Assembly (NCBI RefSeq): GCF_000332175.1
Contig: NZ_KB235914.1
Coordinates: 2,466 to 62,465, forward strand
DNA: 60,000 nucleotides
Source: Pseudanabaena sp. PCC 6802
GTDB lineage: Bacteria; Cyanobacteriota; Cyanobacteriia; Pseudanabaenales; Pseudanabaenaceae
Direction: 5' to 3'
Shown here in pieces: positions 24,524 through 58,860 of this stretch. Each line of letters begins with the position of its first letter. Position 1 is the first letter of the stretch. Position numbers and translations under genes: made by a program. A model generated the notes under the pieces. It saw nothing but the letters and a program-made list of their open reading frames with translations. It made no database searches and was not told the DNA's origin.

Positions 24524-24597
24524 TACTTTGCTTTCTTAAAGAGCTTGTTTTGAAAATACATGCCGCTATATTTTATGCTGCTTCCGTCCAGATATAT

Positions 24598-24698
24598 CTA
24601 TAGCCAACAGGCTTAGGACGGGGTGCAGGGGTTCCACCCCTGCGTGGGGGCGCAGCCCCCACACCCCCATGACCTAACAGATCTGTCTATGGCTATAG
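24598..24698. mobile_element. MITE-like element, family 2
   Basis: This 101-bp element has ends CTATAGCCAACAG and, on the other strand, CTATAGCCATAGACAG: an imperfect inverted repeat. The interior shares GGCTTAGGACGGGGTGCAGG with the copy at 58757-58860 and the half copy at 56499-56531. It folds on a GGGGGCGCAGCCCCC hairpin. It sits upstream of dcd and just before a coding-like remnant. Confidence 0.7.
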
Positions 24699-55012: not shown

Positions 55013-55531
55013 CTATCCAGCATACGCCCGCTCTAGTTCCTTGATGTCGATCTTCTTCATTTGCAGCATTGCTGTCATTGCTCGTTGGGATTTTCCCGTA
55101 TCGGCATCATCGAGCATCTCGAACAAAACTTTGGGAATGATTTGCCAAGAAACACCGTATTTATCTTTGAGCCAGCCGCACTGCTGTGCTGTTTTATCTC
55201 CGCCCTCAGAAAGCTTCTCCCAGTGATAGTCCACTTCTGCCTGGGTCTCGCATTTGACTTGGAATGAAATGGCCTCGTTGAATTTGAATTGTGGGCCGCC
55301 ATTGAGGGCTGCAAACGCCTGTCCATTTAGCTCAAATGAGACAGCCATTACGGTTCCTGGCGGTTGTCCGTGAACTTCCTGCCCAGCTTCTCCATAGCGA
55401 GATATATTGACGATCTTCGAATTTTCAAAAATCGTGGTATAAAACTTTGCCGCCTCTTCAGCTTGGTCGTCAAACCACAAACATGGGGCGATCTTTGCTC
55501 GAATCGATGCTTTATCTGTCAGATCTGCCAT
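55013..55531 (-). CDS. PhnB-like VOC-fold protein
   Basis: A 172-residue VOC protein with KIAPCLWFDDQAEEAAKFYTTIF and SFELNGQAFAALNGGPQF segments, the pattern often labelled 3-demethylubiquinone methyltransferase-like (PhnB). The catalytic metal ligands of glyoxalases are not obvious. It is in the middle of a three-gene minus-strand operon. Confidence 0.85.
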   Translation of the reverse strand: MADLTDKASIRAKIAPCLWFDDQAEEAAKFYTTIFENSKIVNISRYGEAGQEVHGQPPGTVMAVSFELNGQAFAALNGGPQFKFNEAISFQVKCETQAEVDYHWEKLSEGGDKTAQQCGWLKDKYGVSWQIIPKVLFEMLDDADTGKSQRAMTAMLQMKKIDIKELERAYAG

Positions 55532-55565
55532 ACATACCTCCTTTGTAACAATGTGGAATTAGATT

Positions 55566-55976
55566 TTAAGCTGCTTGCTCGATCGCACTGGGTTCCATGA
55601 AAAAGACTTCCCAAATGTGCCCATCTAAATCTTGGAATCCATGCTGATACATAAAACCGTGGTCTTTTGGCTCATTGTAAGTGCTTCCACCCGCAGCGAT
55701 CGCTTTGGCAACGATGGCATCGACTTCGGCGCGACTCTCAAAAGATAAAGCTACAAGTACTTCTGCACTTTTGGTTGTGTCGCAAATTTCCTTGGGAGTA
55801 AAGGTCTTGAAATATTTCTCAACTAGAAGCATCACAAATATATCCTCAGCCACAATCATGCAAGTGGCATTCTCGTCAGTAAATTGGGGATTAAACTCAT
55901 AGCCGAGTTTAGTAAAGAACTGCACAGATTTGTTGAGATCTTTGACGGGTAGGTTCACGAAGATTTTAGTAGCCAT
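55566..55976 (-). CDS. Glyoxalase/VOC-family protein
   Basis: A 136-residue VOC protein (MATKIFVNLPVKDLNKSVQFF ... GFQDLDGHIWEVFFME) typical of small cytosolic extradiol-dioxygenase-like proteins. It is first in the operon with the PhnB-like and YciI genes; the intergenic gaps are only 34 and 43 bases. Confidence 0.87.
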   Translation of the reverse strand: MATKIFVNLPVKDLNKSVQFFTKLGYEFNPQFTDENATCMIVAEDIFVMLLVEKYFKTFTPKEICDTTKSAEVLVALSFESRAEVDAIVAKAIAAGGSTYNEPKDHGFMYQHGFQDLDGHIWEVFFMEPSAIEQAA

Positions 55977-56144
55977 TGTTTTCTCCTTTGGAAATTCATT
56001 TGAAGTTCTAGGCAGGATTTTGATTCAGTCAATTGACTTTGAATCCTTGCTCTACCATTTAGTCGAATAGATGTTCGCGCGATCGACAAGTCGGCAAAAT
56101 TTTTTGCTTTTGGGTTCAGCATTGTTCTCTAGTGCGGGGTTGAG

Positions 56145-56501
56145 TTAGCCGCCGAACTTACCCATCAACACACGACTTGGAAGGTTAGCACTCAGTTACA
56201 GGGCTGAAACCCAGTATCCTCGTTGAAAAGGCTAAAGTGCTCATCCTCTGAGACCCTTATTTGGTAAGGTTTTCAAAATAACCTTCCAAGTCGTGATCAA
56301 CACTGTCTTATCAACGAGAATGCCGTCAACGACGCTAACCAGGCGATCGATTCGCAGCGTTTCGGTACCTTCAACAACAAACAGTTCTTCTTGTGCGCGA
56401 TGAAGGCGATCGGGGCAGACGCGCTTACCGGGGGGAAAAATATCAAACGAGGTGCCGAGCTTTTTTGCCGCAGTGCCCATTGAGAGTTTTGAACGTTGCA
56501 C
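56145..56501 (-). pseudogene. Decayed cupin gene interrupted by a MITE
   Basis: The minus-strand frame from 56501 reads KKLGTSFDIFPPGKR ... HRAQEELFVVEGTETLRI, recognisable as a cupin barrel, but the HxH ligand pair is lost and the N-terminus is missing where a half family-2 element (56499-56531) abuts. The 125-bp MITE at 56171-56295 interrupts the other end. Removing it and one target copy continues the frame through TVLMGKFGG to a TAA at 56145-56147. The gene is thus damaged at both ends. Confidence 0.55.
56171..56295. mobile_element. 125-bp MITE with perfect 17-bp inverted repeats
   Basis: The terminal repeats CACGACTTGGAAGGTTA (56171-56187) and its exact complement (56279-56295) enclose 91 bases without a gene. 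Both sides carry the direct repeat ATCAACA (56164-56170 and 56296-56302), a 7-bp target duplication. The integrity of ends and duplication implies recent movement. The partner transposase is not in this window; none of the ISs here share these ends. Confidence 0.88.
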
Positions 56502-56531
56502 CCCGTCCTAAGCCTATTGGCCATAGCTATA
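56499..56531 (-). repeat. Half copy of the family-2 element
   Basis: The reverse complement begins TATAGCTATGGCCAATAGGC and continues TTAGGACGGGGTGCA, matching the left end of 58757-58860, then stops abruptly at the cupin remnant. It is a one-ended relic. Confidence 0.75.
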
Positions 56532-56654
56532 TCTTGACTCACCTGCGATCGCGACACTTAACGTTTAGCTCTGAGCCAAGAACTGGAGTTCTTGGCTTAT
56601 TTCAGTGCCATTCTGCTATGGTTGCTACAATGGCGAAAACTATGAGAAAGCAGC

Positions 56655-57743
56655 ATGGCGCAGGTACGGCTAGAGAAAATTACCAAAAGATGGCAAAGTA
56701 CTGACGTTATTGAAGACATTAATTTAGCCATCCCCGATGGCGAATTTTGGGTGTTGGTCGGCCCATCGGGTTGTGGTAAGTCCACCATCCTGCGCACGAT
56801 CGCCGGATTGGAAGCCCCAACATCTGGCAATATTTATATCGGCGATCGCCTGGTGAACCAAATTCCCGCTCGCCAGCGCGATGTTGCTATGGTGTTCCAG
56901 AACTATGCCCTCTATCCCCACATGACCGTGGCAGAGAATCTGGCATTCGGCCTGCGCATGCGCCGAGCCGAGCCGCAAACCATTGACGATCGCGTCCTCT
57001 CTGTTGCCAAGTCGCTAGGGATCGACCATCTCCTCCAGCGCAAACCCACGCAGCTATCTGGCGGACAACAGCAACGGGTTGCCCTCGGTCGAGCGATCGC
57101 CAGAAACCCACAGGTATTTTTGCTAGACGAACCCCTATCCAACCTTGATGCCCAATTGCGCGACGATACCCGTGCCGAACTCAAGCTCCTGCATCAGAAT
57201 CTTGGAATTACGATGATTTACGTCACCCACGACCAAACTGAAGCCATGACGATGGCAGATCGGATCGTGGTACTTGACAAGGGACGCATCCAGCAAATTG
57301 GCACGCCTATGGAAGTCTACGAGCAACCCCATAACCTTATGGTTGCCACCTTTTTGGGTAGCCCGCCGATGAATATCATTACAGCCACATGCAGGCACGA
57401 TGCTTTTGCGATCGGCGAGCAAACTATTCCCTGTCCGGAAGCATGGCAATCGCTCCTGAGATCGGCTCAGGAAAAAACCGTCAAACTAGGCATCCGCCCC
57501 GAACATTTATGCTTTAGTCAATCCAATTCAAACGCCATCGCACTATACCTAAAAGCGATCGTAGTAGAACCCCTGGGCAGCGAAACCCTAATCCGAGCCT
57601 GCTTGCCTGACGACCCCAGCCAGATTCTGCAAATTAAAGTGATGGGCAATCTCCCCATCCGCCCCAACGAGCCAATCTCAGTTCAACTACAACTGGAACA
57701 ACTATACTTATTCGATTCGCATACTGGCGATCGCTTGTCATAA
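56655..57743 (+). CDS. ABC transporter ATPase, UgpC/MalK type
   Basis: A 362-residue ABC ATPase of the sugar/glycerol-phosphate importer class: Walker A GPSGCGKST (about 36-44), Q-loop VFQNYALYPHMT, signature LSGGQQQRVALGRA, Walker B VFLLDEPLSNLDAQ, H-loop YVTHDQTEA, then a C-terminal TOBE/OB region from about 240. It is an orphan: no permease or binding protein is adjacent, as is common for shared MsmK-like ATPases. Confidence 0.92.
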   Translation: MAQVRLEKITKRWQSTDVIEDINLAIPDGEFWVLVGPSGCGKSTILRTIAGLEAPTSGNIYIGDRLVNQIPARQRDVAMVFQNYALYPHMTVAENLAFGLRMRRAEPQTIDDRVLSVAKSLGIDHLLQRKPTQLSGGQQQRVALGRAIARNPQVFLLDEPLSNLDAQLRDDTRAELKLLHQNLGITMIYVTHDQTEAMTMADRIVVLDKGRIQQIGTPMEVYEQPHNLMVATFLGSPPMNIITATCRHDAFAIGEQTIPCPEAWQSLLRSAQEKTVKLGIRPEHLCFSQSNSNAIALYLKAIVVEPLGSETLIRACLPDDPSQILQIKVMGNLPIRPNEPISVQLQLEQLYLFDSHTGDRLS

Positions 57744-58742: not shown

Positions 58743-58756
58743 CCTAGGCAAAGATT

Positions 58757-58860
58757 ATAGCTATGGCCAATAGGCTTAGGACGGGGTGCAGGGGTTCCAC
58801 CCCTGCGTGGGAGCGCAGCTCCCACACCCCCTGTCCTAACAGATCTGTCTACGGCTATTA
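58757..58860. mobile_element. MITE-like element, family 2 (second copy)
   Basis: This 104-bp copy shares AGGCTTAGGACGGGGTGCAG and CTAACAGATCTGTCTA with 24598-24698. Its ends are TATAGC...GGCCAATAGG and, on the other strand, TAATAGCCGTAGACAG. A GGGAGCGCAGCTCCC hairpin lies in the centre with a compensated change (GGGGGCGCAGCCCCC in the other copy), so the stem is conserved. Confidence 0.75.

Follow-up and report, generated by a model that had tools for sequence, protein, structure and literature searches.

Short MITEs whose ends are common to a resident IS are called type I in the genome paper of Anabaena sp. 90, from which, in the excerpt used here, we take the terms type I and type II (PMC3542288). 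The MITE described below is likewise short and has ends in common with a resident IS. According to the same excerpt the MITEs of Anabaena sp. 90 are of type II, with no end-sharing IS in that genome, whereas a partner was found here. Nezha, named in an excerpt of PMC10969869, is also a small cyanobacterial MITE, and the likeness to ours is by description only. Two IS families described in PMC2266710 bear on the partner. In the excerpted family descriptions, the target duplications of IS701 are exactly four bp long in almost all members and its end consensus, ---YACT-Y--YR, is said not to be representative of the whole family, while IS4 carries the full Y-(2)-R-(3)-E-(6)-K (YREK) signature.

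The window, by which we mean the whole stretch of 60,000 nucleotides of Pseudanabaena sp. PCC 6802 that was analysed (C5:2466-62465), contains a 125-bp element whose ends are complementary at 17/17 bases across a gap of 91 nt and which has ATCAACA on both sides, just as a sequence-only reading of this DNA had reported (Table 1). All six frames are interrupted by a stop, so the element is non-coding. When the window was scanned for the 17-mer end with up to 3 mismatches, the two ends of the element were returned and no other place (expected by chance 0.10; 0/100 shuffles gave two), in agreement with the earlier statement that no IS of the window matches these ends. The same reading had called the element a MITE and proposed counting its copies. 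The genome searched (5.62 Mb in 6 contigs) holds five full-length copies and one half copy of 65 bp in dispersed places, and the copies together with the ends bear out the name.

Table 1. Features of the locus (window positions) and copies of the MITE and of its partner IS elsewhere in the genome (positions on contigs C5 and C1).
Feature	Position	Strand	Basis or content	Flanking duplication
MITE, 125 bp	56171..56295	+	copy comparison across genome	
Left terminal inverted repeat CACGACTTGGAAGGTTA	56171..56187	+	end comparison	
Right terminal inverted repeat	56279..56295	-	56277-56295 (19 bp) identical to one IS end	
Target duplication ATCAACA, left copy	56164..56170	.	read from sequence	
Target duplication ATCAACA, right copy	56296..56302	.	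read from sequence	
Cupin gene remnant	56349..56492	-	48 residues aligned to 179-aa frame of another genome	
Family-2 palindromic repeat, one end, about 40 bp	56497..56535	+	5' side of cupin remnant	
MITE full copy, identical to window copy	C5:1277221		genome search	
MITE full copy, identical to window copy	C5:4346597		genome search	
MITE full copy, 97% identical	C5:78242		genome search	
MITE full copy, 81% identical	C5:3951392		genome search	
MITE half copy, 65 bp	C5:3977524		genome search	
IS copy, intact	C5:832841-834334		one 453-aa frame	CAAGTA (6 bp)
IS copy, interrupted	C5:2137520-2140323		inserted 289-aa frame without Pfam match	TCAAGA
IS copy, interrupted	C5:2342307-2345158		inserted Mutator-type transposase, PF00872	own duplication absent
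IS copy, interrupted	C1:670411-675495 (L047)		several inserted frames, one with weak DDE_Tnp_1 match	own duplication absent

Duplications are kept at three of the five full-length MITE copies, the window copy included (ATCAACA, 7 bp; AAATTTA, 7 bp; AATAAA, 6 bp). Both copies without one match the window copy at 100% identity. The recent transposition that had been claimed is therefore supported by three identical copies and by the perfect duplication in the window, but two of those three copies lack a duplication. One MITE copy (C5:4346597-4346853, L051:2001-2257) lies directly against base 132 of a fragment of the IS, which places three ends in a row, and on its other flank lie bases absent from the IS. 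This looks like an insertion into the IS, after which DNA at one end was probably deleted.

An autonomous partner had been expected elsewhere, unless it was lost, and was found in the same genome. It is an IS of 1494 bp with the same 17-bp ends as the MITE and a frame for a 453-aa DDE transposase, which is intact in one copy. The proposed search had been for such ends around a transposase with 7-bp duplications; the transposase is there, but the duplications are of 6 bp and flank two of the four end-to-end copies, the other two being without. The exact 17-mer occurs at 23 places in the genome, of which 11 are in MITE copies, 8 in the four end-to-end IS copies and 4 in IS fragments, and among these 23 no third kind of element with exact 17-bp ends was seen. 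The accounting covers the exact places. With up to 3 mismatches allowed there are 36 places, 13 of them inexact, against 20 for a reversed-pattern control, so that the inexact ends mean little. The 453-aa frame, which begins with TTG as listed and may have its true start elsewhere, is the sole full-length one among 11 transposase protein matches in the genome. Comparison with the intact IS copy gives 99-100% identity for the halves of the interrupted ones, and both the spread and the breakage of the IS therefore look recent. IS bases are found on both sides of the break in two of the stretches (11 in L045, 7 in L046), as would be expected of target duplications made by the intruding DNA. Between the IS halves on C1, in a stretch where 300 bases read N, lies a 389-aa frame (L047:3717-4886), partly masked, which by eye resembles a DnaX-type clamp-loader subunit.

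The 453-aa transposase scored 27.2 bits against Pfam DDE_Tnp_1 (gathering score 23) and 116.8 bits against the NCBIfam IS701 model NF033540 (E 1.3e-33), which is below the cut-off of 150. Residues D109, D231 and E355 are invariant in 6/6 aligned transposases and probably constitute the DDE triad; the run W348-(2)-R351-(3)-E355-(6)-K362 is invariant in the same six. Against solved structures the transposase profile gave no more than weak matches; those to chains of Tn5 transposase (E 0.064 or worse) span positions 335-388, the segment into which E355 falls. The structure predicted from the six sequences was too poor to use (mean pLDDT 42.4, pTM 0.30).

Relatives of the transposase at E 1e-60 or better were found in 12/291 genomes, our own included. 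A second collection gave 23 loci, of which 18 are labelled cyanobacteria (Chamaesiphon, Xenococcus, Oscillatoria, Myxacorys and Leptolyngbyaceae among them) and five lie in MAGs with other labels, possibly through binning errors. End pairs were looked for with a script that allowed a spacing of 1300-1650 bp and were found at 29 of the 46 IS loci examined, 1442-1522 bp apart, and at none of the other 17. Twenty-six of the 29 end-paired copies are distinct and one of these has its left flank cut by a contig end, which leaves 25 scoreable copies, namely those of the relatives and the intact copy of our genome. The duplication is of 6 bp in 10 of them, 7 bp in 5, 8 bp in 3 and 2 bp in 1; it is missing in 6, and no copy has 4 bp. 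Duplications of 6-8 bp thus flank 18/25 copies, compared with 1/650 mismatched left-right pairs having 6 bp or more, 25 of these pairs being void because one flank is missing. The outer-edge base is A at 29/46 ends of the 23 duplication-bearing IS and MITE copies (background 0.258), the two ends of one copy not being independent. In our genome A precedes 12/12 exact plus-strand left ends and T follows 3/11 right ends, a strand excess for which an equal preference for A at either end does not account. Partial relatives of the IS were also seen in four plasmid records (three from Acaryochloris, one from Kovacikia), 66-71% identical over 26-63% of the length; one of the four is annotated 'transposase'.

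Identical ends of 17 bp (19 bp at one), duplication lengths that overlap (6-7 bp in our genome, 6-8 bp in the IS relatives), residence in the same genome and the intact 453-aa frame lead us to pair the MITE with the IS. We consider it very probable that the transposase of the resident 1494-bp IS701/IS4-related IS moves this non-autonomous MITE in trans. The transposase would bind the ends common to MITE and IS and excise the MITE, which would then be joined to a staggered target cut of 6-8 bp with edges preferring T...A; repair of the gaps after joining would give the target duplication. Since its ends are also those of a resident autonomous IS, the 125-bp element is, as far as its sequence tells, best interpreted as a MITE of the IS-dependent kind ("type I"). 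That the MITE arose from the present IS by internal deletion was rejected, given that similarity ends at 17-19 bp and the inner ~90 bases are unmatched, with matches to the IS of 10 bases at most beyond the ends.

Relatives of the MITE bear on whether the IS serves it. A search that scored up to two candidates per genome gave matches in 12/388 genomes of the class, including our own. Five other genomes, which represent four other cyanobacterial genera, gave six full-length relatives of 123-125 bp. These can be aligned from end to end with the three distinct full-length sequences of our genome; among the six, a duplication of 6 bp flanks one and a duplication of 4 bp another, and four have none. 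In three of the eleven other MITE-bearing genomes, as assemblies of 140-350 contigs, the transposase had either a weak match (E 1.2e-6 and 2.3e-5) or none, so that another transposase might serve the MITE there. If the same held in Pseudanabaena, the MITE would be served by a different transposase and would have its ends in common with the IS through descent from an older element, as the unrelated inner sequence of the MITE and the lack of a close transposase in 3/3 genomes examined would allow. We regard this as improbable, since the 23 exact ends are all assigned to the MITE, the IS or IS fragments and leave no third kind of element, and the identity of MITE and IS ends is perfect over 17 bp.

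The element also forms a strong hairpin (fold z -5.2 as DNA, -5.5 as RNA), and it could be thought an immobile palindromic, REP-like repeat copied via recombination rather than transposition, the more so as two of five copies are without duplication. The inner 91 nt, however, fold no better than shuffles (z -0.18), from which we attribute the hairpin to the ends, and three of five copies are flanked by 6-7-bp duplications. Duplications and non-folding inner part together disfavour an immobile repeat, which we hold to be very unlikely. Carriage of the MITE by phages was likewise set aside: in a virus collection, six stretches in two sequence contexts had one exact 17-mer each, the fetched stretches gave no second exact end, and the 17-mers were taken as chance. 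No match to the MITE was found in the plasmid collection searched.

Mobilisation in trans by the resident IS thus remains the reading we prefer, and it raises the question of where that IS belongs. It resembles IS701 in that the NCBIfam model matches 6/6 aligned transposases, in a size within the range of 1400-1550 bp and in the absence of the YREK tyrosine, as in most described members (PMC2266710, as excerpted). It differs from IS701 in the duplications of its group, which are of 6-8 bp instead of 4, and in the score of its transposase below the model's cut-off; against the IS701 consensus of the same excerpt, the partner end CACGACTTGGAAG shows ACT at positions 5-7 and R at position 13, with no Y at 4, 9 and 12. 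The excerpt on the IS4 subgroup ISPepr1 gives 7-8-bp duplications, which overlap those of the partner group, and YT ends, where the partner IS has CA. The full IS4 signature described there is incomplete in 6/6 transposases, W348 standing in place of the tyrosine (PMC2266710). The partner IS belongs to a mainly cyanobacterial group which is related to IS701 and IS4 and fits neither published definition. We propose, tentatively and with somewhat less than even confidence, an undescribed group intermediate between IS701 and IS4 (CACGACTTGG or CAGGACTTGG ends, W for Y in YREK, variable 6-8-bp duplications, T...A edges), together with a MITE lineage whose length is nearly fixed (123-125 bp) and which spans at least five genera of cyanobacteria. 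Should the IS group prove sound, an extra group would be needed wherever IS701/IS4 relatives are classified by a fixed duplication length. A MITE with its driver in the same genome is a common kind of arrangement, and the less ordinary point is that the group of the driver fits neither definition. A MITE that looked like an orphan is hereby linked to one specific candidate transposase of its own genome, a prerequisite for a test of mobilisation. A literature search by title, with ISfinder outside its scope, returned no description of this MITE-IS pair, which may have an earlier name; a search with the 10-base end returned no paper on a transposable element, judged by title and start of abstract.

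The gene next to the insertion had been described as a decaying cupin gene that received the MITE. A minus-strand frame of 86 aa (56241-56501) runs into the MITE and matches Cupin_2 at profile positions 4-34 of 70 with 17.4 bits, below the gathering score of 27.2. Residues 4-51 of the frame align with residues 47-95 of the 179-aa frame (57%), and neither the rest of the cupin domain nor the N-terminal part was seen by eye in the translations of 55977-56660. When the MITE and one ATCAACA were removed in silico, the cupin frame reached a stop no more than seven codons from the junction, and truncation of the gene therefore probably preceded the arrival of the MITE. The debris, apparently incomplete before the insertion, agrees with the description, but the MITE lies 46 bp beyond the last recognisable cupin codon. 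As the adjoining gene appears to have been truncated already, the insertion probably inactivated nothing and was probably neutral for the host cell. Delivery of a promoter or terminator to the neighbours was discarded on weak evidence, a consensus scan of 55960-56680 having found no such site (chance expectation 0.5 and 0.8). The cupin remnant is adjoined by two further frames on the minus strand (172 and 136 aa, 55013-55976), presumably glyoxalase-like as judged by eye.

The repeat that lies 5' of the remnant had been taken for half of a family-2 element. It does correspond to an end of the ~104-bp repeat found at 58756-58858, but it amounts to about a third of it. This repeat, a palindromic double hairpin, is also present in the window at 24593-24696. 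Its 29-base end core, with up to 3 mismatches, has 193 matches in the genome against 0 for a reversed-pattern control, which makes it far commoner than the MITE, and its RNA fold has a z of -5.8.
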